DNA of 64,000 bases, taken from assembly GCF_003855395.1 (NCBI RefSeq), contig NZ_CP034015.1:1746001-1810000 (forward strand), given 5' to 3'. The notes below the pieces were generated by a model. That model saw only the letters and a program-made list of their open reading frames with translations. It was not told where the DNA came from and did not search any database. The stretch's first letter is position 1. Each line of letters starts with the position of its first letter. Source of the stretch: Shewanella livingstonensis (GTDB lineage Bacteria > Pseudomonadota > Gammaproteobacteria > Enterobacterales > Shewanellaceae). The position numbers were made by a program, and so were the translations under genes. This document shows, piece by piece, positions 4,290 to 64,000 of this stretch.

Positions 4290-5453
4290 ATGACCATGGA
4301 AAAGTTGTCAGCTTCATCGAACTTTCTGGATCTAGGAGGACTAGATTCACTTCGTGTCCAAGCCCAGAAAGACGAGAAGGGGGCACTTAAAGAAGCGGCA
4401 AAGCAATTTGAAGGTATCTTTATTCAAATGCTAATGAAAAGCATGCGAGATGCTAATGCCGCGTTTAAGTCAGACAATCCAATGAACAGTGAAACCACCG
4501 CATTTTTTGAGCAAATGCGCGATCAACAAATGTCGGTCGATTTATCAAGTAAAGGCATGCTGGGGCTAGCTGAGCTTATGGTGCAGCAATTAGACCCAGA
4601 AGACAGCCCCATTACGCCAGCTTCAGTATTGCGTGGCAATAGTGATTATAAAGTTAACCCAAGTATGTTTGTTGCTCCAGCAACAGAGTTAGATAAAGAC
4701 ACCTTAGATATTATTGCGCCAAAAGATCAAATAGCCGCATCGCATTCAGTAATCGCTAATTCTGATAGAGCCCATTCTGTTATAGATAGCGCCGAATCGA
4801 TGCGACCAATGTCAGCTCAGTTTACTAATGTGTTAGACGGTGAGCAGTTAAATAAGGTGTTACGCGGTGAGCAATTAGCCAGTCAAGCGTTACAAATAGG
4901 CAAAGTATTGCCGCCAACAGATGTTACTGCACCTAAAGCTAAAGGTATTGCAGTGAGTCAGTTTACTAGCCCAGAACATTTTATTTCAGTGTTATATCCC
5001 CATGCTGAAAAAGCGGCTAAATCGTTGGGCACTACAGCTGAAGTGCTAATTGCCCAGTCGGCGTTAGAAACCGGTTGGGGCCAAAAAGTGGTACGCCGTA
5101 ACGACGGCACTATGAGCCATAACCTGTTTAACATTAAAGCAGACAAGCGTTGGCAAGGTGATAAAACCTCAGTCAATACGTTGGAATTTGAAAAGGGCAT
5201 TGCGGTGCAACAAAAAGCGGATTTCAGAATGTATGACAACCTTGAGCAGAGCTTTAATGACTTTGTGTCATTTATTAGCCAGGGCGATCGTTATCAGGAT
5301 GCACGTAAAGTTGCAGCTGAACCAACGCAATTTATTAAAGCATTGCAAAAAGCCGGTTACGCCACCGACCCTCAATATGCCAATAAAGTCATCAACGTGA
5401 TGAAGTCGGTAACAGAAGGCCTTAAATCTATATTACCTGTGGAGACTAAATAA
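4290..5453 (+). CDS. flgJ: Rod-capping scaffold and peptidoglycan hydrolase FlgJ
   Basis: FlgJ caps the growing rod and cuts a hole in the peptidoglycan. The N-terminal third is the rod-binding domain (AAKQFEGIFIQMLMKSMRDA, about 35-55). After a variable linker, the C-terminal part from about residue 230 is a glucosaminidase domain with the catalytic-Glu context QSALETGWGQ and HNLFNIKAD. The protein is 387 residues, longer than the ~313 of enteric FlgJ because of the linker. A second ATG two codons on (4296) is an equally possible start. The stop overlaps the flgK start (TAATG). Confidence 0.94.
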   Translation: MTMEKLSASSNFLDLGGLDSLRVQAQKDEKGALKEAAKQFEGIFIQMLMKSMRDANAAFKSDNPMNSETTAFFEQMRDQQMSVDLSSKGMLGLAELMVQQLDPEDSPITPASVLRGNSDYKVNPSMFVAPATELDKDTLDIIAPKDQIAASHSVIANSDRAHSVIDSAESMRPMSAQFTNVLDGEQLNKVLRGEQLASQALQIGKVLPPTDVTAPKAKGIAVSQFTSPEHFISVLYPHAEKAAKSLGTTAEVLIAQSALETGWGQKVVRRNDGTMSHNLFNIKADKRWQGDKTSVNTLEFEKGIAVQQKADFRMYDNLEQSFNDFVSFISQGDRYQDARKVAAEPTQFIKALQKAGYATDPQYANKVINVMKSVTEGLKSILPVETK

Positions 5454-7382: not shown

Positions 7383-8597
7383 ATGAGAATTTCTACCGGA
7401 CAGATGTTTCAACAAAACACTAATAGCATATTAGAAAAGCAATCTGCTACCAACACCATTATGGCGCAAATTTCTAGCGGCAAGAAAGTCAATACTGCTG
7501 GTGACGACCCAGTTGCAGCCATTGGTATTGATAATTTAAAGCAAAAAAATGCCCTGGTAGACCAATTTGTAAAAAACATAGATTACGCCACTAACCATAT
7601 TCAACAAGCCGAAAGTCAGTTAGGCCAAGCCGATACCTTAGTTGGCAGCATGAAAGAGTCTGTGCTGCGCGGCATAAACGGCAGCATGACTTCCGCCGAG
7701 CGGCAAGTGATTGCCGATGACATGCGTCAAAGTCTTGAACAATTAATGTCCATTGCCAATACCAAAGACGAATCAGGTAATTATATTTTTTCTGGAAACA
7801 AAACTAACAGTGCACCTTTTGCTTTCGATAATAATGGTGATGTGGTTTACAGCGGTGATTCTGGTATTCGTAAAAGCAATATTGCTGCAGGGGTACAAGT
7901 TAATACCAATGTGCCTGGTGACACCGCCTTTATGAATGCACCAAATGCCATGGGCGATTATGGCGTCAATTATTCGTCATCACAGCAAGGTGACTTTGTT
8001 GTATCTAGCGCCAAAATCGTACCTCAAATACCGGCGGTTGCGCATATTGCTGATATTTATAGCTTTAAATTTAGCGATGACGGTGTTGGTGGTCTCAATG
8101 TAGAGGTGAGCGACAGTACGCCAACTATCATCTCAGCAGCAGCTCCCTTCGACGCTTCAGTGCCGATTAAGTTTAGAGACATGGAAGTAACAATAGACGG
8201 CAAGCCTGCAGTTAATGACGTCTTTACTGTCGAACAACAGCCACAAGTCAGTATTTTCGATACCTTCAGCAAGGCTATCGCATTATTTGAAAGCGGCAAC
8301 GATGCACAAACTCCAGCAGGTCAGTCAGAGTTGGCACAGCTCTTGAATAACATTGATAGCGGCGTCAATCAAATGAGTCAGCAACGTAGCTTAACCGGCA
8401 ACAGCTTAAAAGTGTTGCAACAGTACAGCGACAATCACACTGATGAAAAGTTGATTAACACCTCGGCGCTATCAAAGTTAGAAGACTTAGATTTTGCCTC
8501 GGCAATTACTGAATTTGAAAAACAACAACTCGCACTCAGCGCAGCATCGAGTTTGTTCAGTAAAGTAAGTTCTACCAGTTTGTTTGATTATATATAA
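7383..8597 (+). CDS. flgL: Hook-filament junction protein FlgL
   Basis: FlgL (HAP3) is the second junction protein, on which the filament is built. The 404-residue sequence starts MRISTGQMFQQNTNSILEK and keeps the flagellin-like N-terminal coiled coil (QISSGKKVNTAGDDPVAAIG, about 30-49) and the C-terminal helix (DFASAITEFEKQQLALSAAS). It is the last gene of the flgF-flgL operon; no strong terminator follows, only an AT-rich region with short repeats. Confidence 0.95.
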   Translation: MRISTGQMFQQNTNSILEKQSATNTIMAQISSGKKVNTAGDDPVAAIGIDNLKQKNALVDQFVKNIDYATNHIQQAESQLGQADTLVGSMKESVLRGINGSMTSAERQVIADDMRQSLEQLMSIANTKDESGNYIFSGNKTNSAPFAFDNNGDVVYSGDSGIRKSNIAAGVQVNTNVPGDTAFMNAPNAMGDYGVNYSSSQQGDFVVSSAKIVPQIPAVAHIADIYSFKFSDDGVGGLNVEVSDSTPTIISAAAPFDASVPIKFRDMEVTIDGKPAVNDVFTVEQQPQVSIFDTFSKAIALFESGNDAQTPAGQSELAQLLNNIDSGVNQMSQQRSLTGNSLKVLQQYSDNHTDEKLINTSALSKLEDLDFASAITEFEKQQLALSAASSLFSKVSSTSLFDYI

Positions 8598-8620
8598 GTG
8601 AACTTTAGATTTGGTTCAAC

Positions 8621-8664
8621 ACAAGGTCTTTTGTAGCAAGCTTTATAAATTAACAAGGTCTTTT
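8621..8664 (+). repeat. Two direct copies of ACAAGGTCTTTT
   Basis: The 12-mer ACAAGGTCTTTT appears at 8621-8632 and 8653-8664, between flgL and the first flagellin. Related pieces (AAGCTTT, TTTTTAA) recur nearby. No function is evident. Confidence 0.6.
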
Positions 8665-8690
8665 TTAATACGCTTTTTAACAAGCTTTTT

Positions 8691-8722
8691 AAATAAGTAA
8701 ATAAGTAAATAAGTAAATAAGT
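8691..8722 (+). repeat. Four perfect copies of the octamer AAATAAGT
   Basis: The unit AAATAAGT is repeated four times without change at 8691-8722, followed by a decayed copy. It lies about 30 bases upstream of the likely flagellin promoter. Slippage here could change spacing upstream of the promoter, but that is inference. Confidence 0.85.
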
Positions 8723-8754
8723 AGATAAATAAGCATTTTATAAAAGCCACACAT

Positions 8755-8780
8755 TAAACAGTTTAATGATTAACCGTTTA
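8755..8780 (+). promoter_or_regulatory. Weak sigma-28 promoter candidate for the first flagellin gene
   Basis: TAAACAGT (8755) and ACCGTTTA (8773-8780) resemble the FliA consensus TAAAGTTT and GCCGATAA, but the spacer is 10 instead of 11 bases and the -10 element matches only 5 of 8 positions. A small stem (GCCAAG 8781-8786 with CTTGGC 8795-8800) follows in the leader. Confidence 0.4.
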
Positions 8781-8827
8781 GCCAAGCTCCGAGTCTTGGC
8801 GTTCAACTAAGAAGAGGAATTTTACCT

Positions 8828-10312
8828 ATGGCTATTTCAGTTAACACCAACGTCACATCCATGAAAGCGCAGGGCAACTTAAACAAAGCGCAAAGCGCCA
8901 CATCCATGTCTATGGAGCGTTTAGCATCAGGCTTACGCATCAACAGCGCTAAGGACGATGCTGCCGGTTTACAAATATCAAACCGTATGACTAGCCAAAT
9001 TAATGGTATCGGTGTTGCTATTCGTAATGCCAACGACGGAATCTCTATTGCGCAAACCGCTGAAGGCGCCATGGGCGAGTCAACTAATATCTTGCAGCGT
9101 ATGCGTGACCTGTCATTGCAATCTGCCAACGGCTCTAACTCATCGAGTGACAGGGCTGCAATGCAGAAAGAAATTTCTTCATTACAGGATGAGCTAACTC
9201 GTATTGCAGAAACCACCTCATTTGGTGGTCAAAAATTGCTTGATGGTTCTTATGGTACCCAGTCATTCCAGGTGGGGGCAGAAGCAAATGAGACTATTGG
9301 TATATCGCTAAAAGATATATCAGCAGACAAGCTTGGCAGTTACTCACAAACTTTAGTGTCAAGTGGCGCTGGTTTGGGTTATGGTTCTGCTTTAGGAACC
9401 GCAGACGTAACAGCCGCTAATGGCGTGACTTCTTCAACTTTGAAAGTTAATGGTACTGTTTCGAAAGGTATTGCCGTTGCACTCGGTGATTCAGCTAAAA
9501 CGATTGCAGCTAGCATTAATGCAGAATCTGCCGCGACAGGTGTAAACGCGAAAGCGACAACATCTTTGAAAATAGACACTCTAGCTTTAGCTGGTGATAT
9601 TACTTTTAAGTTAAACGGTGAGGCCGTATCCGCAACTATTGCAGACCCAACAGATTTAACATCCTTGGCGGCTAACATTAATGAGCTAACATCGGATACA
9701 GGCGTTAAGGCATCTATCGATAAGGACGGCGCGTTAGTTTTAGTTGATGATACTGGCGCAGACATGACTATTGAAGATTTTACCACTACAGGTACAACAG
9801 CAACTGTATCAGTAACCGCGGTAGGTGCTGATGGGGAAGAAAATGGTAGTGCGGTAGTCCTTAGTGGTGCTAGTGGTTCAACAACTGACTCATTTAAAGT
9901 CGCTGGTGAGATAGAACTTGACTCCCTGCAGACTTTCAATACTCAAGCTGGTGATGTTACAACTGGAGCTACTGTGAATATAACTGCTTCAACGCTTACA
10001 GAAATAGAAAAGGTTGATATTGGTACTGCAAAGGGTGCACAGGATGCGATTACTGTTATTGATGCTGCTATAGCTCAAATTGATAGCAGTCGAGCTGATT
10101 TGGGTGCGGTACAGAATCGAATGAGTTTCACCATTAGCAACTTGGGCAATATTCAAAATAACGTCTCAGATGCACGTAGCCGTATTCAAGATGTTGACTT
10201 TGCTTCAGAGAGTGCTCAACTGAGTAAGCAGCAGATTCTGTCACAGGCTTCATCTGCGATGCTTGCGCAGGCGAATCAGTTGCCACAGGTAGCGTTGTCT
10301 TTATTGGGTTAA
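8828..10312 (+). CDS. flaA: Flagellin, first of two tandem copies
   Basis: This is a filament subunit, secreted by the flagellar export system and polymerised on FlgK/FlgL under the FliD cap. The N-terminal D0/D1 domain ([40 protein letters not shown]) and the C-terminal helix ([20 protein letters not shown]) are classical. At 494 residues it is much larger than the ~273-residue S. oneidensis flagellins (from memory), with a Thr/Ala/Asp-rich variable domain at about 160-420. Bases 9281-10088 are identical to 11023-11830 of the next gene, while the flanking coding sequence differs at many third positions. The symbol follows gene order in S. oneidensis and is tentative. Confidence 0.95.
9281..10088 (+). 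repeat. 808-bp block identical to 11023-11830 (copy in first flagellin)
   Basis: Read side by side with an offset of 1742 bases, the two blocks show no difference from GAAGCAAATG to GATAGCA. The blocks encode residues ~152-420 of each flagellin. Just outside, differences resume (for example GGGGGCA against GGGTTCT on the 5' side and GCAGTCG against GCAATAG on the 3' side). Confidence 0.93.
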
Positions 10313-10360
10313 TAATTAACTGAGCTATTAGCCATTAGTCATTGATCGTGACAACAAAAG

Positions 10361-10387
10361 CCGCCATTTAACAGTGGCGGTTTTTTA
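10361..10387 (+). terminator. Terminator after first flagellin
   Basis: The stem CCGCCA (10361-10366) / TGGCGG (10375-10380) is followed directly by TTTTTTATTT, a classic intrinsic terminator 48 bases after the stop codon. The two flagellin genes are thus likely separate transcripts. Confidence 0.88.
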
Positions 10388-10463
10388 TTTATAAGGTTAA
10401 TTTACAGAAAAATCTGTTTTTTGAGTGATTATTGATTTATTTCGGTGTTGTTGAAAAAAAAAC

Positions 10464-10490
10464 TAAAGTTCCTCCTTTTGTTGCCGTTAC
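10464..10490 (+). promoter_or_regulatory. Sigma-28 (FliA) promoter of the second flagellin gene
   Basis: TAAAGTTC (10464-10471), an 11-base spacer and GCCGTTAC (10483-10490) fit the FliA consensus TAAAGTTT-N11-GCCGATAA at 13 of 16 positions. A leader hairpin GCCTG (10514-10518) / CAGGC (10531-10535) lies between it and the start codon. Confidence 0.85.
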
Positions 10491-10569
10491 CTTAAGTGTA
10501 ACCAATATGATTCGCCTGGCTAAATAAAGACAGGCAATGTCTACAGTCAGGAATACGAGGAATTAAATC

Positions 10570-12051
10570 ATGGCTATTTCAGTAAACACTAACGTCACAT
10601 CAATGAAAGCACAGGGTAACTTAAATAAAGCCCAAAGCAGCACTGCAATGTCTATGGAGCGACTCGCTTCTGGCTTGCGCATTAATAGTGCCAAAGACGA
10701 TGCTGCAGGACTGCAGATATCTAATAGATTTACTAGTCAAATAAATGGTCTAGGTGTGGCCATGCGTAATGCTAACGACGGCATTTCGATTGCCCAAACT
10801 GCTGAAGGCGCAATGAGTGAGTCAACTAATATTTTACAGCGTATGCGTGACTTGTCGTTGCAATCGGCTAACGGTTCAAATTCAAGCGCAGACAGATCTT
10901 CAATGCAAAAAGAAATTTCCTCATTACAGGACGAGCTAACTCGTATTGCTGAAACCACCTCATTTGGTGGTCAAAAATTGCTTGATGGCTCTTTTGGTAC
11001 ACAGTCATTTCAAGTGGGTTCTGAAGCAAATGAGACTATTGGTATATCGCTAAAAGATATATCAGCAGACAAGCTTGGCAGTTACTCACAAACTTTAGTG
11101 TCAAGTGGCGCTGGTTTGGGTTATGGTTCTGCTTTAGGAACCGCAGACGTAACAGCCGCTAATGGCGTGACTTCTTCAACTTTGAAAGTTAATGGTACTG
11201 TTTCGAAAGGTATTGCCGTTGCACTCGGTGATTCAGCTAAAACGATTGCAGCTAGCATTAATGCAGAATCTGCCGCGACAGGTGTAAACGCGAAAGCGAC
11301 AACATCTTTGAAAATAGACACTCTAGCTTTAGCTGGTGATATTACTTTTAAGTTAAACGGTGAGGCCGTATCCGCAACTATTGCAGACCCAACAGATTTA
11401 ACATCCTTGGCGGCTAACATTAATGAGCTAACATCGGATACAGGCGTTAAGGCATCTATCGATAAGGACGGCGCGTTAGTTTTAGTTGATGATACTGGCG
11501 CAGACATGACTATTGAAGATTTTACCACTACAGGTACAACAGCAACTGTATCAGTAACCGCGGTAGGTGCTGATGGGGAAGAAAATGGTAGTGCGGTAGT
11601 CCTTAGTGGTGCTAGTGGTTCAACAACTGACTCATTTAAAGTCGCTGGTGAGATAGAACTTGACTCCCTGCAGACTTTCAATACTCAAGCTGGTGATGTT
11701 ACAACTGGAGCTACTGTGAATATAACTGCTTCAACGCTTACAGAAATAGAAAAGGTTGATATTGGTACTGCAAAGGGTGCACAGGATGCGATTACTGTTA
11801 TTGATGCTGCTATAGCTCAAATTGATAGCAATAGAGCTGACCTAGGTGCAACGCAGAATCGTATGAACTTTACTATCAACAACTTGGGCAATATTCAAAA
11901 TAACGTCTCAGATGCGCGTAGTCGTATTCAGGATGTGGATTTTGCTTCAGAGAGTGCTCAACTGAGTAAGCAGCAGATTCTGTCACAGGCTTCATCTGCA
12001 ATGCTTGCGCAGGCGAATCAGTTGCCACAGGTAGCACTGTCATTACTATAA
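10570..12051 (+). CDS. flaB: Flagellin, second of two tandem copies
   Basis: This second filament subunit has 493 residues. D0/D1 regions at both ends differ from the first copy at a few residues (for example [10 protein letters not shown] against [27 protein letters not shown] against [17 protein letters not shown]), but the whole variable domain from residue ~152 to ~420 is identical in DNA. It has its own strong sigma-28 box and terminator. The protein ends at QVALSLL, one Gly shorter than the first. The symbol follows position in S. oneidensis and is tentative. Confidence 0.95.
11023..11830 (+). repeat. 808-bp block identical to 9281-10088 (copy in second flagellin)
   Basis: This is the second copy of the flagellin variable-domain block, in the same frame and orientation. 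It points to recent gene conversion or a recent duplication with selection or conversion restricted to the middle. Confidence 0.93.
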
Positions 12052-12416
12052 TCACTACTGAAATCGCAACTGAAATCACTATTAGTGCTATTGTTACAGC
12101 TAGTAAGTAATAGTTAGTGATAAGTGGGTAGTGATAAGTAGATGATTGACTGTTACGCACTAAGTGAATCGGTAGCATAATGGCAATAGAGAAAAGGAAG
12201 ATTCACAGTTGAATCTTCCTTTTTTGCTTTATGTTATTAGCAATTATTCTTAGATGCTTTGCTTTGCTTAGCGCTTAGCACTTAGTGCAGGGCGTTTAGT
12301 ATTTGTTGCATATAAGTGAGTAATGCAGATAGATGATTGATGCTAGCTTATAGCTGCTTGGCTTTAGTGTTGTGTTAGCATGTATTGTTAAATGATTGCG
12401 GCAATTGGAGGATGTT
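12052..12416 (+). other. Gap between second flagellin and flaG
   Basis: The 365 bases contain the flagellin terminator at 12192-12225 and otherwise AT-rich sequence with short direct repeats (AGTGATAAGT-like at about 12115-12140; GCTTAGC- and GCACTTAGT-like at about 12260-12300). No open frame looks real. Confidence 0.7.
12192..12225 (+). terminator. Strong terminator after second flagellin
   Basis: A 14-bp perfect stem, AAAAGGAAGATTCA (12192-12205) against TGAATCTTCCTTTT, with the tetraloop CAGT and a T run, is a very strong intrinsic terminator about 140 bases after the stop codon. Confidence 0.93.
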
Positions 12417-12866
12417 ATGGACAATAATTCAATGGGCATTACAAGTTCGCCTGTAAGCCATTCGGTAACAAGTCGACCTGAAGTAATACCCGATGCTTTG
12501 CCGGGTCGTAATGGCGTGTCAAATATCGCCGCTGAAGCAAGTATTCATGCGCCCGAAGTTGACAAGGTATCGTTGACCAAGACGATAGCGGAAACTCAGG
12601 CTGATGCTAACGCTGCAGCCGAGACTAAAAAAGAGCAATCAGATGCTGAAGCGCTCGCGGCAGTGGTTGAGCAATTGTCAGAGGTGATGTCGATAATGAA
12701 TAAAGGTTTGGCATTTTCGATTGATGACGATTCAGGCTCGGCGGTAGTGAAAGTGATGGATATCGATACCGGTGAGTTGATACGCCAAATCCCCAATGAT
12801 GAGGCCTTAGAGTTGGCGCAAAAATTGCTTGATGTAAAAGGGCTGTTGATGAGAACCGAAGCCTGA
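12417..12866 (+). CDS. flaG: Flagellar protein FlaG
   Basis: FlaG is a small protein found beside fliD in polar flagellar clusters and linked to filament length; the mechanism is not settled. The 149-residue product has a disordered N-terminal half and the FlaG domain at about 80-148 (LAFSIDDDSGSAVVKVMDID, GELIRQIPNDEALELAQKL). The ATG at 12417 is chosen because GGAG sits 6 bases upstream; an in-frame TTG at 12396 has no such site. It heads flaG-fliD-(fliT-like)-fliS. Confidence 0.92.
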   Translation: MDNNSMGITSSPVSHSVTSRPEVIPDALPGRNGVSNIAAEASIHAPEVDKVSLTKTIAETQADANAAAETKKEQSDAEALAAVVEQLSEVMSIMNKGLAFSIDDDSGSAVVKVMDIDTGELIRQIPNDEALELAQKLLDVKGLLMRTEA

Positions 12867-12929
12867 TTAGGGTTTCGCTGAATATTTTTAAGAATAATGA
12901 TGCTTTTAAAGCGATAAGTTGAGGTAAAT

Positions 12930-14294
12930 ATGGGATTAACATCGGTAGGGTTAGGTTCAGGCCTAGACATTAACGGTATTGTATCGGCTTTAGTTAGCTC
13001 AGAACAAGCCCCGAAAGTTGCTCAGTTTAATGCCAAAGAGGGCGCGATTAATGCTGAAATATCAGCGTTAGGCTCTTTAAAAAGCTCGTTATCTGAATTT
13101 AAAAGCAGTTTAAGCTTTCTCTCTAAAACGGCATCTTTCGATAGCCAAAGCGTATCGCTTTCTAAAAGTACTTATCTAAGTGCGACTGTGAGTAATAATG
13201 CTGTATCTGGCAGTTATAATGTTGCCGTTGAACAACTAGCCGTTAGTCAAAAAGTTGGCTCTGCGCCTGTGAGCGATGTGACGGCGGCTTTAGATGAAGG
13301 CTCGTTAAATTTTGCCGTCGATGGCAACAGCTTTGATGTTGCGGTTACCACAGAAGATACCTTACAAACGTTAGTGTCTAAAATTAACTCAGCTAAAGAT
13401 AATGTTGGGGTTACCGCTACTATAGTTAATAGTGATGCTGGTGCAAAATTAGTCTTAACTTCCAATAAAACGGGTACCGCTAATAATATTACGGTTTCAG
13501 CAACTGATACAGGCGCAGGTACAGTGTTGGCAGATACCTTTGCCATGACTGAATTGCAACCCGCTAAAGATTCGATTGTTTATATTGATGGTTTAAAGCT
13601 TACTTCGAGCAGTAATACCGTAGAGGGTGCCATTGATGGTGTGACCCTTAACCTTAAAGATGCCGATATCGATAAGCCAACCACATTAACCGTTGCCCAA
13701 AATACTGGCTCAATAAAAACTGGCATAAAATCGTTTGTTGAAGCGTTTAATGCGATGTCGAAAACAATAACTGATTTAACCAGTTACAATGCTGCGACTG
13801 AAACAGCGGCTGTTTTACAAGGGGATTCGTTACCTCGCGGGATACAGAGCCAATTACGCGGCGTTATTTCATCAGCATTTGCAACATCCAATGGTAATTT
13901 GTCGCTTGCTTCTATCGGCATTACTACTACGCGCAGTGGCACCTTAGAAATAGATGACGAGATTTTAACCGCCGCTTTAAAAAACAATGTTACTGGTATT
14001 AAAGAAATGTTTACCACCGAAGATACCGGTGTAGCCACCAAATTAGACGGTTACCTTGATTCGTATGTTGGCACCGGCTCTATTATTGATAGCCGTGATA
14101 GCTCCCTAGACGGTAACCTAGAGCGTTTAAGTGATCAACGAGAAGTGTTTGCGCGTAAAATGGCGGCATTTGAAGCGCGTTTGTTTAAGCAATATAACTA
14201 TATGGATTTGATTGTCGGTCAATTAGGTACCCAGAGTTCCGATTTACAATCTCGACTTGATTCACTGCCTGGATTAGTAAAACAAAATAATTAA
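12930..14294 (+). CDS. fliD: Flagellar filament cap protein FliD
   Basis: FliD (HAP2) forms the cap under which flagellin subunits are inserted at the filament tip. The 454-residue protein opens with VGLGSGLDINGIVSALV, the FliD N-terminal signature, and ends with the C-terminal coiled coil region (LFKQYNYMDLIVGQLGTQSS). Middle segments are Thr/Ser/Ala-rich, as expected for surface-exposed loops. GAGG precedes the ATG. It lies between flaG and the fliT-like gene. Confidence 0.95.
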   Translation: MGLTSVGLGSGLDINGIVSALVSSEQAPKVAQFNAKEGAINAEISALGSLKSSLSEFKSSLSFLSKTASFDSQSVSLSKSTYLSATVSNNAVSGSYNVAVEQLAVSQKVGSAPVSDVTAALDEGSLNFAVDGNSFDVAVTTEDTLQTLVSKINSAKDNVGVTATIVNSDAGAKLVLTSNKTGTANNITVSATDTGAGTVLADTFAMTELQPAKDSIVYIDGLKLTSSSNTVEGAIDGVTLNLKDADIDKPTTLTVAQNTGSIKTGIKSFVEAFNAMSKTITDLTSYNAATETAAVLQGDSLPRGIQSQLRGVISSAFATSNGNLSLASIGITTTRSGTLEIDDEILTAALKNNVTGIKEMFTTEDTGVATKLDGYLDSYVGTGSIIDSRDSSLDGNLERLSDQREVFARKMAAFEARLFKQYNYMDLIVGQLGTQSSDLQSRLDSLPGLVKQNN

Positions 14295-32425: not shown

Positions 32426-33229
32426 ATGGATATTTTGTTTGATGAAATCAGTCAAACAATTGCTGCTTATCTTTTGCCATTCTTTCGTATCTCTTCCATG
32501 CTTATGGTGATGGTGGTATTTGGCGCTAATACTACTCCCGCTCGAGTTCGGCTGATGTTATCCGTGGCGATAACAATGGCAGTTGCGCCTATTTTACCTC
32601 CGATTGAAAATGTCGAGTTAATGGCATTAAGCTCAGTTTTTGTGATTGCTCAGCAAATCTTAATTGGCGTCACTATGGGGTTTGTGACCCTAATGGTGAT
32701 GCAAACCTTTGTGCTAACTGGGCAAATTATTGGTATGCAAACCAGTTTAGGTTTTGCCTCTATGGTCGACCCTGGCTCTGGTGAGCAAACACCAGTAGTG
32801 AGTAACTTTTTTCTATTATTAGCCACGTTAATCTTTTTGGCTGTAGATGGTCATTTACTCATGTTGCGGATGCTGGTGGCCAGTTTTGAAACCATTCCTA
32901 TTTCAAATCAAGGCATTTCAATTGCCAATTACCGGGCCCTTGCTGATTGGGGCAGCTTCATGTTTGGTTCTGCATTAACGATGTCAATTTCGGCTATTGT
33001 TGCGTTGTTATTAATCAATTTGTCCTTTGGTGTGATGACTCGCGCCTCGCCTCAACTGAATATTTTCTCTATTGGTTTTCCGGTCACAATGGTCAGTGGT
33101 TTGTTGATTTTGTGGTTAACATTAGCACCTATCATGGCCCATTTTGATGAAGTGTGGATGGCTGCGCAGTTACTTATGTGTGATGTTCTGCAACTTCAAT
33201 GTCAGCTTGATGGCTCAGTAGTATTCTAA
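32426..33229 (+). CDS. fliR: Flagellar export gate protein FliR
   Basis: FliR completes the FliP-FliQ-FliR export core. The 267-residue protein is strongly hydrophobic with about six membrane segments and keeps the family motif QTSLGFASMVDPGSGEQTPV. It is packed tightly between fliQ and flhB. It is not fused to FlhB, unlike in some clostridia. Confidence 0.96.
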   Translation: MDILFDEISQTIAAYLLPFFRISSMLMVMVVFGANTTPARVRLMLSVAITMAVAPILPPIENVELMALSSVFVIAQQILIGVTMGFVTLMVMQTFVLTGQIIGMQTSLGFASMVDPGSGEQTPVVSNFFLLLATLIFLAVDGHLLMLRMLVASFETIPISNQGISIANYRALADWGSFMFGSALTMSISAIVALLLINLSFGVMTRASPQLNIFSIGFPVTMVSGLLILWLTLAPIMAHFDEVWMAAQLLMCDVLQLQCQLDGSVVF

Positions 33230-57009: not shown

Positions 57010-58638
57010 TCACTTTACTTGGTCAATAGGGCGCCAGCGCTGTAATGCTACTGGAAGACTCACACCTTGCGCCGTTAATAAATTCACTCGGGCCAAATAA
57101 GCTGCGCCATGCATTAAGTGTTTAGCTAAGTCTACTGCATGACGCTGGGTGTAGTCATCTAAATAACTGCCTTTTGCCCAAGCATTAAATGCGCCAAGTG
57201 ATGGTCCGGCCCAAATTTGATAGTCCATCTCGCGGCCCACTTCACCTGAGTTTGACCAGCGGCTTGATAAACCTAGATACCAGCGGAAAATTAACGCCAT
57301 TTTACGTTTAGGGTTATCTTTAGCGCGTTCAATTTGTTTTGGGTCACGCTCATTAAAATGCGCTACGGTGCCAGCCCAAATGTCTTCTAAACTTGAACGG
57401 AATACTTGTTTTTCAAGCTTTTCACGCTCATCAGCAGGGATTGCGTCGATAGAGTCATAGCGAGTATAGAGCTCATATAATTTGTTGGCGCGCATCGGGA
57501 ACAAGGTGCCGCGCTTTACCACTTGCAGCTTAACACCCATTTCGAACATATCGGCAGCAGGTGCCATAGTCACATCGGCCATTTCAGTCGTGGCGAGTAA
57601 CTTACGAGTATGCTCGCTGGCTCCGGCTTCTACACAGGCTTGGTTGATTGAACCGGTAACAATATAGGCTGCGCCCATATGAAATGTCGCTAGTGCAGCA
57701 TCTGGCGTACCGACCCCACCACCGGCACCCACGCGGATAGGCGTTTTGTAATTGTATTGCGCTTGCACCTCATCTTTTAATGCCAAAATAGTCGGCAGTA
57801 AAGTCACTAATGGACGGTTGTCAGTATGACCGCCTGAGTCTGCTTCGGCAGTAATATCATCAGCCATTGGCACTAGCTGCGCCAGTGCCATTTGCTCTGC
57901 GCTGATAAGACCTTCATCAACCAATTGTTGTAGCATTTTAATTGGCGCAGGTTGCATAAACTTAATCGCCACTTCAGTACGGCTGATTTTAGCAATCACT
58001 TTATTGTCTATTTGCACATCGCCATTTGCATTGCGGCTTAAACCAGCTGCACGGTAATAGACGATTTGCGGGGTTAAGCCTAAAAAGGCTGACGCCTCAA
58101 CGGTACGCACTTTATGCTTTAAAAATAGCTCGACACTGCCACGCTCTAATGCTGGCTCGCTTGGGCTGTGGATCAAGTTAAACATGTATGGGCCATTAGG
58201 CAGCGCTTCTTGAATGCGCTTAATCGCTTGTTCAACCCGTGATGGAATTAACCCTGCTGCGCCAAACGAGCATAAAATACCCGCTTGGCCTAACGCGATA
58301 ACCAGCTCTTCAGAAGAAATACCATTGGCCATCGCGCCAGCGTAATAGGCATATTTTACCCCATGGACGCGGCGAAAATTACTGTCGTCTAAGCTTTGGG
58401 TCCCTAGGGCAGGGGCAAATGCGCTCACTGGCAGTGCATTTATCGCTGTAATAGCATCGGTCACAACTTGAGCTTGTTGCGCCACACCTAAACCATACTG
58501 AGTGTCGTTAACCACATAACACGCTTGTGATAAATCTTTAAGTTTTTTGTCCATGCCTGAGGGCTCGAAGCTGACGTGTGGCTGACTAACTTGCCAAGGC
58601 CAAGGAGAAAGCTTTTCGTTATGCACTTGTGTTGTCAT
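57010..58638 (-). CDS. pfaD: PfaD, enoyl reductase of polyunsaturated fatty acid synthase
   Basis: PfaD is the separate FMN-dependent enoyl reductase that works with PfaA-C to make EPA or DHA type fatty acids. The 542 residues show the 2-nitropropane-dioxygenase-like barrel: GAAGLIPSRVEQAIKRI, the TVLLP-type phosphate-binding part VGAGGGVGTPDAALATFHMG and YIVTGSINQACVEAG. It follows pfaC by 20 bases on the same strand, so the two are co-transcribed. Confidence 0.96.
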   Translation of the reverse strand: MTTQVHNEKLSPWPWQVSQPHVSFEPSGMDKKLKDLSQACYVVNDTQYGLGVAQQAQVVTDAITAINALPVSAFAPALGTQSLDDSNFRRVHGVKYAYYAGAMANGISSEELVIALGQAGILCSFGAAGLIPSRVEQAIKRIQEALPNGPYMFNLIHSPSEPALERGSVELFLKHKVRTVEASAFLGLTPQIVYYRAAGLSRNANGDVQIDNKVIAKISRTEVAIKFMQPAPIKMLQQLVDEGLISAEQMALAQLVPMADDITAEADSGGHTDNRPLVTLLPTILALKDEVQAQYNYKTPIRVGAGGGVGTPDAALATFHMGAAYIVTGSINQACVEAGASEHTRKLLATTEMADVTMAPAADMFEMGVKLQVVKRGTLFPMRANKLYELYTRYDSIDAIPADEREKLEKQVFRSSLEDIWAGTVAHFNERDPKQIERAKDNPKRKMALIFRWYLGLSSRWSNSGEVGREMDYQIWAGPSLGAFNAWAKGSYLDDYTQRHAVDLAKHLMHGAAYLARVNLLTAQGVSLPVALQRWRPIDQVK

Positions 58639-58658: not shown

Positions 58659-61600
58659 TTATGCTTCTTCAATACAGATTGCGATGTCTTTGACTTCATA
58701 AATACGCAGACCATCTTTACTGAGGTTTGCGTCGCCAATGATGATGCGTTTGCCGTCTTCATCTTTTACTGCGCTGATATGCACATCCAGCGACATTTGT
58801 TTGTTCAGTGGGTTTATTTGGCCGCGATACTTCCATTTTATATCTGATAAGATTTGACCAAATTTCGGGTTAGTGAAACCTTTGCCTAGATCTTTGCTGA
58901 TGGCGTAAGTTTGCATCAACTCGATTACGGCTTCAACGCCTAATGAACCTGGCATTACCGGATCTTGATGGAAGTGGAATTGGAAGAACCAATCACTTGG
59001 GTCAATAGTGCGTGACGCCGCTAAATAGCCTTTGCCGTACTTGCCGCCAGCCTCAACGATTTCTGCCTTGTCGATAAAGTTAAGTTGGCCACCTGCTAAG
59101 CGATAATGAGGCTGGCTAGCCGGTGCATTAAACACCCGTGAGGTTTTATCCAGTAAGTTCACACTAATGTCAGCCGCGACATTGTTCTCAACATGCCAAG
59201 GCTTCGTTACTCTGCCGTTATCGATACCAAGTTGGTTTTTAAGCGCATCGCCTTTGAAGTAGCCAAATACTGCAGTGCCGCTATAAAAGGCCTCTCCATC
59301 GACGCTTAAATCGAAGCTGAAGTATTGAATAATGTTACTGCCAGCTATAACCGTTGATAAAAGCTTTGAATCGTTGACGATAGTTTTACCGCGTAAATCC
59401 ACATGGCGCAATAATTTACCGCTACCATCTAAGTTACGGAAAAACAGCTCTTGCCCTGGGAAGCCCAAGGTGGTGCCCATGTAGCCTGAGATGAAGCCGT
59501 TAGGTTGTAATGAAATTTCCATTAACACCGAATAAGGCATCACCCCTTGATGACTGTTTTTGGTAAAGTACCAAGCATCGGCCGGCACTTCATATTCGGC
59601 GATACAAGAGGACGGCTTTTTCAGCTCGCCGCGCTTACCGTTAATTTCCACTACGCGGGTGGTTAACTGTAAATCACCACACGGTGTGCGCGGCGGAATT
59701 AAGCCGCGGTAAATACTAAAATCTGGACCGAAACAGTTCTCAATGTTACCCGTGGCAAATTCAAACATGTGATAAGGGGTAAACGGCACAGTATCAGGTA
59801 CGCGGTTGGCGTACTTTGAATCGGCAGCTACAGTTGGCGCTTCTACGTGTTTAAGCGGAATAACACCTTTATTGGTCGGCGCGCTTAAATCTGGCACTTG
59901 CGCCATCAATGGGGCTTTGTTAACACTAACTTGATTGGCTGACGTGTTTGCATGAGTAGTTTGTGAAGATAGCAGCGGGTAACGAGTACATTCGCTTTCT
60001 TCTTTTATCATCACGCCTAAGTTTTGGAAATCCACCACAGCCTTGCCATTGAGTAAAATATCAATGTTAGCTTTAGCGTAAGGGCGTGGATGAATACCAA
60101 TTTCCGTCACTTCCATGCGATAAGTTAATGTCCCATGTTGCGGTAATACTTGTCCGCGACAACGTACTTTTTGCGAAGCATTTTCAAGTGGTTGGAAACG
60201 ACCATTACTCACTAAGGTGTGCATGCCGATATGCAACATAAAGAACTGTAATAACTGACCACAGCCTTCGGCCATTAATGAGCCCGCCATCACTTGATCA
60301 CCTTGGAAGTGGCATGGGAAATACCAGTGATCCGGTGCCAATTGCTTATGACCTTCAATTAAGCCTAAGCCCCAAGCGCCGCCACTCACATCTAGCTTGC
60401 TAACTTGCTCAATCATTAAGAACTTTTCAGAAGCGAAACATAACGATGGCTGTAAACCATTTTCTAGCTGGTGGCTAACGTGCGCGCCGCCAAAACAGCT
60501 GCCAATATCACCATTGAGTAAATGATGGATTTGACCATAGTTAAATTCTGCCTGAGCACAATGCAGTAGCGGTTCAAAACGCGGTTTGTTAGGGTTGTTC
60601 ATCACGCTTATACGATTTTTGATTTCATCTTCTGTGTGAATAACGCCTTTTCCATCAGCTAATTCTTGATCAGTAAAGAAGCCTGCACAGCCGCCGTCCA
60701 TTTTGAGGATCATCTTATCGCCAACGAAACATTCGTAAGAGAAGAAGAAGAGTAGCGTGTCGCCATTGCTGGCAAAGTTATTAATTTTGATGTCGTAACG
60801 TAATGTATCGCCGCCGCGAGGTAAATCGGCTAAGAATGTTAGGGTGCAATCTAATAAACGGTAAACACGTTCGCCTTTGTTTTCAAAGTCGATGCCTAAG
60901 TAGCTAATCAACATCAGGTCACATTGACCAGACTCAACCGCGACCGCCCAAGGGATTTGACCATCGACTAAATAAGGTGCGTCCACTGGAATGTCATATT
61001 CAGTGGTCATTGAACAAGGCTTATATTGGTTCATGGTTGCATCAAGTTTAGTGACGCGTGATACCAATAAATAGTCAGTGGTAGGCAGACGTACGCGACG
61101 TTTATAGCCGTCAATAATCGCGTAATCTTGACCAAATACCTTGGCGATATCACCCTCGGCATATTCCACTAAATCTGCGTAATTCCAAATGCACGGTTTA
61201 TCGGCTGGAATAGGGGCGGTGTATGCGGGGACTCTTGAGTGATCAGGCGTTGAATGATCAGGCGCTGCATGATTGGGTGTTAATACTGTTTGATGAGCAG
61301 GTTGCGCCAAGACGTTTACCGCTTGAGGTGCAGTTTGTATTTGCTGTAAAGGCTGCACAGATCCTGAGCTTACGGTACTTGAGCTTGCGGTATAAGCGGT
61401 TGGCTGACCATTAACCTGGGCTAATTGCTGTTTTAGCAAGGTGTCAGCCACTTTAAGGCCTGCATCGCGACTTTTCAAAAAGGCTAAATGTGCTTGTTGC
61501 GCTAGCCACTGATTTTGCTGAAAAGCGTTTAAATGGGCTGGCGGTACACTCTGGGTAAACGCAGAGTGTGCAGAGTTTAGTTTAGTAGAAGCCGGTTTTA

Positions 61601-64000
61601 GATTAGGCATAATAGTGTGTGTCGTCTCTGTTGAGGGCGCGATTTGTGTTGTCGATTGCGTCTTTGTCATAGGAACTACTGTAATCACTGTAGTGGCCTG
61701 TGCTTGCGGAGCAATATGAGCACATTTAGCTTTAATGCTGTCAATTGATGCTATTGGGGTATCGATAATATGTTGATAAATATCTCGTCCGCCAAGGCTG
61801 ACTTGCTTGATTAAACTTAATTTACTGCCAGTGGCTATGGTGTGCGATAGCTGCTGTGCAAGTGGTGCCGTTAATCGATGTGTTAGCGCTTGTTGCTGTG
61901 GCTGAGATACTGAAATATCAATGCTAGAGAATTGATTTTCACTTACCGTGACGATGTTAGCATTAGCCGCGCTAGCATGAGTTGTCTTAGTATTGACGTT
62001 CAACTTAACAAGTGTATGAATAATGCTCGCCATTCCAGATGCGGCAAAGCTGTGTCCCATCAAGTTTTGTGCTTGGGTAAGCGGTGTTGCACTTGATGCT
62101 AGTTGGTTAAATATCGCCTGGCCTGAAGCATCAAAACGGTTTTCAGGGGACTGATTTAATTCAATCAAATCAGCCGGCTTTGATAACACCTTTGTACTCA
62201 TATCATTGGCGCAATAGTTACTGCTAAATTGCAGGCTATCGATACTGGCGTAGCTGCTGTCGGTTAAACGGGTATTGGCAGCTTGTACTTGCAACACAAT
62301 AGCGCCAGCACCTTCACCCACGTGCCAAGGGCGGCTGGCAATATCGTTTGGCTGAATACCCGATGCAGATAAGTAGCCATTTTTAAGCAGCATATTCTCA
62401 ATGCTGCCCGATAAATCGACTGCGGCGATAATAACAGCGTCCAGCGGCTCTTGCATTGAGCCTAAAGCAAACAGATTTTGCGCCACATCAATACAACGAC
62501 TTACCGATTGCTCGCCTGCTGAAATGGTAAAGGCCGGGCCATTAAAGTCCCACAATGATGAAATGCGCGACGCCATAATGTTGCCAATAAAGCTGGTGTA
62601 CTGATTCAACTTAGCGGCATCTAACACACTGTCCATGGCGATCGATTCAAGAGCTTGATATTCATCATCAGTTAGTGCAACACCTTGTGCTTTTAAACTT
62701 TGGGCTATTTGGCTATGCAAATTAACCCGCCCACGGAACTGATGCAGTTCAAGCTCAGTTTCCATCGCCACTAATACCGCGACCTTGCTGCCGGGTTTGA
62801 GTTTAGCGTCAATAATGGCTTCATCGGCAACTTTCATTAATAACAGCTGCTGTGAGATTAATCTGTCATCTTCATTGGGCGGCACTTTAAAACGTAAAAA
62901 GTCAAAATCAAACTGTTCGATATAAGCGCCTTGGGAAACACAATGCAGACCATGTTTGGCCAATAATTCCGGGTGACTATTTAATCCTTTCCAGCGTTTA
63001 GCGGGTAAGCTTGTCATTAAAGATTGTTGCTGAGTGATTTTGTCAGCCAATGCATTTATGCTACTAGCTTGACCAAAATGAGCAGCCATACCGGTAATGT
63101 TAAGCGGCGTATTAGCTGCGTTTAACTGGCTAGCTGATGTATTGACAGAACCATGATTAATCGCATTATTATCATAAGATTCAATCAATAAATGCGCGTT
63201 ACAACCACCAAAACCAAATACTGACACCCCAGCATGACGCGAGGTATTGCCGGCTTTATCTGGCCAAGGTAATACTTCATTAGGTAAGGTTTGTTGACCA
63301 AACAATTGATTCGGCGAGGCGATAGGGCTGCTGATATTAATACTTGGCGGCAATACTCCCTGGCGCATAGCGAAAATCATTTTCATGATCCCCGGCATCC
63401 CTGCTGCTGTAAGCAAATGGCCTAGGTTAGATTTAGCTGAGCCAATTAATGGCGTTGCACTGCCATTAAGCTTATCTTCAAAAAAGCGCTCCATCGATGT
63501 CAGCTCGACCTTGTCACCCAGCGGTGTGCCAGTAGCGTGACATTCAATCACTTCAATGCTGGATGGCGCTATATCAGCTTCACGATAAGCGCGCTCGAAC
63601 GATAATACTTGGCCTTTGCTATTTGGGCTTAGTACGAACTGGCCTTTACCGTCGTTCGACAAGCCAATGCCGCTGACTAACGCATAAATATGGTCGCCAT
63701 CGCGCTGTGCATCGTCAAGGCGTTTCAGGACTAATACGCCAGCACCTTCACCGGCAAATAAGCCTTTGCTGTTACTGTCAAACGGCGCCGAAATACCGTG
63801 GTCTGGGTAGGCGTGAAAAATAGAGAAACCCATGTTGATAAAGAATGGATCTGCGCCCGATACGGCGCCCGCTAGCATTATGTCTGCCTTGCCAGTGTGC
63901 AAGTAATCACACGCCAGTTTCAATGCGTAAACAGAGCTTGCACAGGCAGCATCTAAACTTAATTGCGCGGCACCTAAACCCAGTGCGTCTGCAACGAGCT
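58659..64000 (-). CDS. pfaC: PfaC, ketosynthase / chain-length factor / double dehydratase (5' part outside window)
   Basis: PfaC is a multidomain subunit of the anaerobic polyunsaturated fatty acid synthase. The frame is open to base 64000 and 1779 residues are visible. In order: the ketosynthase from just before its active-site Cys (LDAACASSVYALK, visible residue 19) with CHATGTPLGD (~153) and NLGHLLTAAG; a chain-length-factor-like domain to ~760, where the Cys position holds Glu (TISAGEQSVSR, ~494); a Thr/Ser/Ala/Pro linker (~760-960); and two FabA-like dehydratases, with HFQGDQVMAGSL (~1228) and HFHQDPVMPGSLG (~1674). The gene continues upstream beyond 64000. Confidence 0.96.
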   Translation of the reverse strand, partial: LVADALGLGAAQLSLDAACASSVYALKLACDYLHTGKADIMLAGAVSGADPFFINMGFSIFHAYPDHGISAPFDSNSKGLFAGEGAGVLVLKRLDDAQRDGDHIYALVSGIGLSNDGKGQFVLSPNSKGQVLSFERAYREADIAPSSIEVIECHATGTPLGDKVELTSMERFFEDKLNGSATPLIGSAKSNLGHLLTAAGMPGIMKMIFAMRQGVLPPSINISSPIASPNQLFGQQTLPNEVLPWPDKAGNTSRHAGVSVFGFGGCNAHLLIESYDNNAINHGSVNTSASQLNAANTPLNITGMAAHFGQASSINALADKITQQQSLMTSLPAKRWKGLNSHPELLAKHGLHCVSQGAYIEQFDFDFLRFKVPPNEDDRLISQQLLLMKVADEAIIDAKLKPGSKVAVLVAMETELELHQFRGRVNLHSQIAQSLKAQGVALTDDEYQALESIAMDSVLDAAKLNQYTSFIGNIMASRISSLWDFNGPAFTISAGEQSVSRCIDVAQNLFALGSMQEPLDAVIIAAVDLSGSIENMLLKNGYLSASGIQPNDIASRPWHVGEGAGAIVLQVQAANTRLTDSSYASIDSLQFSSNYCANDMSTKVLSKPADLIELNQSPENRFDASGQAIFNQLASSATPLTQAQNLMGHSFAASGMASIIHTLVKLNVNTKTTHASAANANIVTVSENQFSSIDISVSQPQQQALTHRLTAPLAQQLSHTIATGSKLSLIKQVSLGGRDIYQHIIDTPIASIDSIKAKCAHIAPQAQATTVITVVPMTKTQSTTQIAPSTETTHTIMPNLKPASTKLNSAHSAFTQSVPPAHLNAFQQNQWLAQQAHLAFLKSRDAGLKVADTLLKQQLAQVNGQPTAYTASSSTVSSGSVQPLQQIQTAPQAVNVLAQPAHQTVLTPNHAAPDHSTPDHSRVPAYTAPIPADKPCIWNYADLVEYAEGDIAKVFGQDYAIIDGYKRRVRLPTTDYLLVSRVTKLDATMNQYKPCSMTTEYDIPVDAPYLVDGQIPWAVAVESGQCDLMLISYLGIDFENKGERVYRLLDCTLTFLADLPRGGDTLRYDIKINNFASNGDTLLFFFSYECFVGDKMILKMDGGCAGFFTDQELADGKGVIHTEDEIKNRISVMNNPNKPRFEPLLHCAQAEFNYGQIHHLLNGDIGSCFGGAHVSHQLENGLQPSLCFASEKFLMIEQVSKLDVSGGAWGLGLIEGHKQLAPDHWYFPCHFQGDQVMAGSLMAEGCGQLLQFFMLHIGMHTLVSNGRFQPLENASQKVRCRGQVLPQHGTLTYRMEVTEIGIHPRPYAKANIDILLNGKAVVDFQNLGVMIKEESECTRYPLLSSQTTHANTSANQVSVNKAPLMAQVPDLSAPTNKGVIPLKHVEAPTVAADSKYANRVPDTVPFTPYHMFEFATGNIENCFGPDFSIYRGLIPPRTPCGDLQLTTRVVEINGKRGELKKPSSCIAEYEVPADAWYFTKNSHQGVMPYSVLMEISLQPNGFISGYMGTTLGFPGQELFFRNLDGSGKLLRHVDLRGKTIVNDSKLLSTVIAGSNIIQYFSFDLSVDGEAFYSGTAVFGYFKGDALKNQLGIDNGRVTKPWHVENNVAADISVNLLDKTSRVFNAPASQPHYRLAGGQLNFIDKAEIVEAGGKYGKGYLAASRTIDPSDWFFQFHFHQDPVMPGSLGVEAVIELMQTYAISKDLGKGFTNPKFGQILSDIKWKYRGQINPLNKQMSLDVHISAVKDEDGKRIIIGDANLSKDGLRIYEVKDIAICIEEA

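Follow-up and report, generated by a model that had tools for sequence, protein, structure and literature searches.

The tandem flagellin genes and their identical block

Two tandem flagellin genes of Shewanella livingstonensis have diverged ends and share an outer-domain block that is identical base for base. Very probably, non-reciprocal recombination between the copies recently homogenized the outer D2/D3 domain, a process that appears to have been repeated in the genus. Selection for one filament surface may favor the homogenized state. The genes lie in a stretch of 64,000 nucleotides (nt) of contig NZ_CP034015.1 (positions 1,746,001–1,810,000), hereafter the window. The first, flaA-like by position, occupies 8828..10312 on the forward strand and encodes 494 amino acids (aa) ending in Gly; the second, flaB-like by position, occupies 10570..12051 on the same strand and encodes 493 aa without that final Gly (both from the list of open reading frames (ORFs), the alignment of the copies and Pfam). 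Both are flagellins by their Pfam Flagellin_N and Flagellin_C matches (E-values 1.8e-46 and 1.1e-27 for copy 1, 2.1e-46 and 2.6e-27 for copy 2). In copy 1 these domains span residues 5–141 and 408–493, with the best Flagellin_IN stretch at 257–307.

The longest identical run between the two genes in the assembled sequence is exactly 808 nt (9281..10088 in copy 1 and 11023..11830 in copy 2, forward strand), which bears out the initial annotation's claim of 808-bp identity over residues ~152–420. All 110 differences among the 1482 bases compared fall outside this block: 80 in the 453 nt 5′ of it, between the N-terminal D0/D1 ends (8828..9280 and 10570..11022, forward strand), and 30 in the 221 nt 3′ of it, between the C-terminal D1/D0 ends (10089..10312 and 11831..12051, forward strand). 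Three of the latter arise where the final Gly codon of copy 1 is aligned with the stop codon of copy 2. The encoded proteins differ by 15 substitutions and by the terminal Gly unique to the first, so the ends do differ, as annotated, at many silent and some amino acid positions. With the 110 differences scattered at random, the probability that a given 808-nt stretch is difference-free is ~10^-40, and none of 2000 random placements yielded an identical run that long; the block is therefore not a random outcome.

Silent sites make the contrast sharper. The Nei–Gojobori proportion of silent differences (pS) is 0.588 for the N end, 0.000 for the middle and 0.441 for the C end, or 0.541 for both ends together, which corresponds to a Jukes–Cantor divergence of ~0.96. 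All ~208 silent sites of the block are unchanged, so silent divergence since homogenization is below ~0.014. Homogenized silent sites are thus confined to a bounded tract, whose limits a scan also recovers, with normal divergence outside it, and the distribution of silent differences along the gene, a check proposed in the initial annotation, favors conversion.

The domain layout was taken from an AlphaFold2 model of copy 1 (67-row alignment, mean predicted local distance difference test score 80, predicted template modeling score 0.64). The model has a filament-type fold with an outer D2/D3 part: long N-terminal helices at 6–130, a hairpin at 145–159, a β-rich outer part at ~170–374 and a C-terminal helix from 401. 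Because of this layout, the block (residues 152–420) is predicted to comprise the outer D2/D3 domain and a short piece of D1 on either side. The best solved structural match is the P. aeruginosa filament 8sug (template modeling (TM) score 0.73), and the PAO1 FliC D2/D3 crystal structure 8erm also matches (TM score 0.74 by target length).

Recurrence of the homogenized middle across Shewanella

The pattern extends beyond the window strain. The genus-wide search covered 129 Shewanella genomes, the window's included, and 39 long-flagellin loci (L075–L113) were fetched among the matches listed; with the window these make 40 loci, 32 of which have two reading frames to compare. Eight loci did not yield two full reading frames (L076, L097, L101 and L109–L113) and were dropped. 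L115, L134 and L035 were also excluded, L044 duplicates L095, and G018, G143 and G146 (one match listed each) lie outside the fetched loci. From L102, which has three copies, the first two entered the pair counts. The second gene of L099 is cut by the region to 372 aa (the longer locus L052 gives 394 aa), and its C end is partial in the comparisons and trees.

A pair was called homogenized when the pS of its middle was below half that of its ends, a cut-off chosen after inspection of the table; the domain limits were those of the window's own block, a choice that is circular for the window alone, the other 31 pairs being unaffected. By this measure 15 of the 32 pairs have a homogenized middle and none shows the reverse, the window being the extreme case. 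The comparison with orthologues in related strains, likewise suggested by the initial annotation, therefore speaks for conversion. The longest identical runs elsewhere measure 758 nt (L089), 752 nt (L080), 637 nt (L095, S. benthica DSM 8812) and 552 nt (L098). The closest middle is that of the within-genome partner in 24 of the 32 genomes, and the closest ends are the partner's in only 8.

A two-state scan with hand-set parameters placed the start of the longest tract in each of the 15 homogenized pairs at residues 81–280 and its end at residues 294–443 (window numbering); in none of them does this tract touch either gene end. Further short tracts lie in the ends of several pairs (e.g., L075, L078, L080, L098 and L103), the window included. 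There, a possible second homogenized tract covers part of the C-terminal helix (10199..10293 in copy 1, forward strand; 95 nt with one difference from its partner at 11941–12035); it is short, and codon constraint may explain its near-identity.

Short Shewanella flagellins (~272 aa) have a middle of only ~39–49 codons and were excluded from the main count; the same cut-off picks out 3 of their 14 two-copy pairs (L121, L126 and L132). The S. seohaensis proteins P0017 and P0020 are alike at 266 of 274 middle positions, and their N ends differ at 14 of 151. At G072:C113:42722-44158, one of the genome's two flagellin copies has an in-frame TAA in the assembly.

Outside Shewanella the homogenized middle is rare. 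Among 31 control comparisons from other genera (all within-array pairs and four distant pairs) it occurred in none and the reverse in five; among the 11 adjacent pairs, one had the window's pattern (Colwellia marinimaniae L050, with an 865-nt run) and one the reverse (third pair of L114). Ends far more alike than middles were seen in the third pair of L114, in L140, in L149, in L153 with L154 and, within Shewanella, between the third copy of L102 and its neighbor, copy 2.

Different histories of ends and middles

Quick maximum-likelihood trees of 65 sequences were built separately for ends and middles. In the tree of the middles, pairing is almost wholly by genome (30 label changes). The tree of the ends contains many by-genome clusters, yet copy-specific clades appear in several groups (23 label changes; 399 of 500 shuffles gave a count as low for first copies).

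Two subclades were tested further. In the first (L088, L089, L092, L096 and L098), all 200 bootstrap trees divide the ends into first and second copies; the copy-splitting branch has moderate support (87/88), with the outgroup L099 on the first-copy side. Every middle pairs within its genome (support 99 or more each), and forcing the middles of the first copies together was rejected by the approximately unbiased (AU) test (p 2.6e-8). A constraint uniting the ends of a genome's two copies, tested in three of the five genomes, was rejected for L088 (p 0.00017) and L092 (p 0.035) but not for L089 (p 0.064). In the second subclade (L099, L103 and L104), the ends split by copy (96/97) and all three constrained ends-pairs were rejected (p 0.0005, 0.005 and 0.011), whereas the middles group by genome, grouping by copy being rejected at AU p 3e-4 (support for the L103 pair is only 91/94). 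Because the ends follow the copy and the middles follow the genome, the sequences of both subclades indicate within-genome conversion after speciation, limited to the middle.

Outer-domain classes and the possible source of the block

Single linkage at a 45% identity cut-off sorted the middles of the 32 pairs into eight outer-domain classes, and in 32/32 genomes both copies belong to the same class. This holds at 40% and 50% too and for 29/32 genomes at 55%; in L106 it depends on linkage, its two middles being only 39% alike. For nine of the 32 genomes, the closest genome by ends belongs to another class. Within the five-genome subclade, three genomes carry one class and two another, the copies always being alike. 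The middles of L096 and L086 are 76% alike although their ends fall into separate groups; the outer domain may have passed from one lineage to another.

The window shows the same discordance against S. frigidimarina KCTC 23109 (L033/L075). Neighboring products are close (FlgJ 96%, FlgK 85%, FlgL 89%, FliD 89%, FliS 98% and FlaG 73% identity), as are the flagellin ends (84–100% per 25 residues), versus 12–44% over residues 151–400 and 35% over the whole middle. A DNA search with the block matched 11 of the 128 other Shewanella genomes. All of these matches, of 51–125 nt (the best 83% alike over 125 nt), lie close to the block's 3′ edge, and no donor-like full block was found in the 128 congeners. 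The proteins nearest to the window's are P0002, P0003 and, from Shewanella sp. SG41-4, P0004; their middles are 73–78% like the window's. The suggestion in the initial annotation that the block arrived from elsewhere as one piece thus receives indirect support, from a middle with so few DNA matches in the genus between ends and neighbors close to S. frigidimarina.

Explanations for the homogenized middle

Recent gene conversion between the tandem copies, proposed from the first to account for the block, stands as the best reading, favored by the silent-site, tree and orthologue tests. Such conversion would have made the outer D2/D3 segment identical, with end points in the D1 parts flanking the outer domain; the D0/D1 ends would have escaped it and retained an older divergence. 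Its limitation to the outer domain is well supported by the sequence comparisons. Across the genus, outer domains would drift or switch class, and conversion would then spread one version to both copies; a foreign outer domain may first have entered one copy and then been copied to the other. Selection for a single surface, through avoidance of phage, grazers or mismatched neighboring subunits, may favor the homogenized state, and functional differences between the subunits may disfavor conversion of the ends.

Several observations weigh against this reading. At the post hoc cut-off, 17 of the 32 pairs are not homogenized, and neither is L041, a pair from an uncultured Shewanella outside the 32. 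Over the 65 sequences the ends, too, mostly cluster by genome, so they have probably also been converted, less recently than the middles. Both tested subclades were chosen after the first tree had been viewed. The window's two ends are sisters in the nucleotide tree (Shimodaira–Hasegawa-like approximate likelihood ratio test 99), so the argument for conversion in the window itself comes from the silent-site contrast: the conflict between block and end trees that the initial annotation had proposed to look for is present in the two subclades of relatives but not in the window, whose ends also group by genome. Besides the final Gly, only two end positions strongly separate first from second copies, which lends weak support to strong subunit specialization. 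The D1 pieces inside the block gave no resolution of the direction of copying.

The same conversion could also be neutral and filtered: tracts would fall anywhere, and those over the ends would be purged because the subunits need different D0/D1 regions, with no selection on the surface. This account shares the conversion step with the explanation above, differs only in the cause and overlaps with it in probability; we give it somewhat less than an even chance. It is in keeping with the final Gly (32/32 first copies, 0/32 second copies), with the copy-specific ends kept by the two subclades, with the short tracts that do exist in ends, and with the differences in place and function of FlaA and FlaB described for S. 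putrefaciens (PMC6299084) and S. oneidensis (PMC11839096). In the 17 non-homogenized pairs, the middles are 37–97% alike (protein, median ~76) versus 89–96% for the ends. Middles this dissimilar are expected to recombine less readily than the ends; it is nevertheless the middle that carries the long tracts, which speaks against a mere filter. The shared class in 32/32 genomes also fits exchange, though descent of the duplicates explains part of it. The limit to the middle may reflect either loss of end conversions through core differences or a favored uniform surface, or both. The shared class in every counted genome leans towards the uniform surface; it is not proof of such selection, because duplicates share class by descent as well. 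More tentatively still, the genes may form a modular pair, a copy-specific assembly core combined with an outer-domain cassette that passes between lineages and is subsequently imposed on both genes through conversion; escape from a filament-recognizing phage or grazer would need all subunits changed. If so, outer-domain replacement would be a two-step, jointly selected event, readable in the silent sites of living species.

Independent import of the same foreign outer domain into both genes from one donor, without exchange between the copies, would suit a class unlike that of the nearest species by ends and the lack of a donor-like full block in 128 congeners; it requires the same DNA to have arrived twice and with near-identical limits. 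The numerous partial tracts of relatives better fit within-genome exchange, and we consider independent import unlikely. An assembly artefact, a collapsed repeat copied to both places, has a parallel in Shewanella sp. SG41-4, where contig L064 stops after codon 41 (5001–5125) and the partial P0004 stops at the block's end, as at an assembly-breaking repeat, which suggests that this strain carries an identical flagellin repeat as well. The same pattern is found in other single-contig genomes (G119, i.e., L080, with 752 nt, and G109, i.e., L098, with 552 nt), and scattered differences remain inside the tracts of L088, L079 and L108, unlike a collapse, so an artefact is very improbable. A fresh whole-gene tandem duplication with ends diverging afterwards would agree with the tandem layout and with window ends that are each other's closest nucleotide relatives. 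It is contradicted by the silent-site contrast and is scarcely credible, for it needs ~0.96 silent substitutions per site in both ends and none in the ~208 silent sites between them. Antigenic variation from silent donor cassettes was also considered and rejected, as the genome (one contig of 4,839,879 bases) holds only two close flagellin copies, both with open frames, and one weak match, the flgL gene.

Relation to known flagellin systems

In the H-antigen system of Salmonella and E. coli, the middle of fliC is exchanged by recombination within conserved ends; this exchange takes place between strains at one locus and does not replace the middle of two tandem genes together. For Alteromonadales flagellin, concerted evolution at gene level is already published: PMC6053082 describes recurrent concerted evolution of fla, with identity over nearly the full gene length, in eight species. 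These are paralogues of the same order homogenized by recurrent conversion, as proposed here, but in the window the identity ends at the outer domain and the gene ends remain diverged. In Campylobacter, a different bacterial group, recombination and concerted evolution of flaA and flaB (Harrington 1997; Meinersmann and Hiett 2000, as cited in PMC5126078) likewise involve exchange between paralogues within a genome, for which surface variation has been suggested as the reason.

Within Shewanella, flaA adjoins flaB in S. putrefaciens and S. oneidensis as in the window, and the two subunits occupy different places in the filament there. FlaA of S. putrefaciens is enriched close to the motor and FlaB at a greater distance from it, an arrangement that aids motility (PMC6299084). 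Production of FlaB in S. oneidensis depends on sigma-28, and two residues account there for most of the difference in motility (PMC11839096). Unlike the window's proteins, the flagellins of both species are short: those of S. putrefaciens have 273 and 271 aa and, in contrast to the window's, differ from each other mostly in their variable region (PMC6299084), and those of S. oneidensis have only D0 and D1 (PMC11839096). The reason for multiple flagellins in many bacteria is described as mostly unknown (PMC6299084). No description of conversion confined to the outer domain in Shewanella flagellins was found among the literature matches listed, which is no proof of novelty. Within one protein, the ends keep copy differences and the surface is repeatedly equalized, a division that can be read from evolution. 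The 15 homogenized and 17 other pairs form a natural series for testing selection on a uniform filament surface, and whole-gene flagellin trees should be read with caution as they blend two histories.

Locus organization and neighboring features

The order of the Shewanella polar flaA–flaB locus, which we take to be flgK, flgL, flagellin, flagellin, flaG, fliD, fliS and flrA (some names by position), is matched by the window (ORFs; Pfam FlaG, FliD and FleQ), and the order from flgJ to fliS is the same in L033 (tblastn). A sigma-28-like promoter match lies upstream of the second gene (10464..10490, forward strand; 13 of 16 consensus positions, spacer 11). The best of 300 base shuffles reached 12, and the best match upstream of the first gene 10/16. 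A sigma-54-like site sought upstream of the first gene scored 7/12, no better than shuffles of the second gene's upstream stretch. Because the sigma-28-like match stands before the second gene only and the final Gly is copy-specific (the second copy of L052 likewise lacks it), the locus looks like a flaA–flaB pair with separate control.

An Rfam scan of 8000–13000 gave no match at gathering scores. Chi-like octamers occur three times within the window, the nearest to the flagellin genes at 32872. Antisense ORFs at 9379–9939 and 11121–11681 are mirror images of the block and were set aside as presumed chance frames. Upstream of the first flagellin gene, two 28-nt direct repeats, 82% alike with starts 32 nt apart, lie at 8621–8680, followed by TAAG/TAAA-like repeated units near 8693–8730. 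About 45 kb downstream of the flagellins, genes at 58659–63923 (ketosynthase and FabA domains) and 57010–58638 on the reverse strand (PfaD_N and FabD-insert domains) are probably polyunsaturated fatty acid synthase genes.
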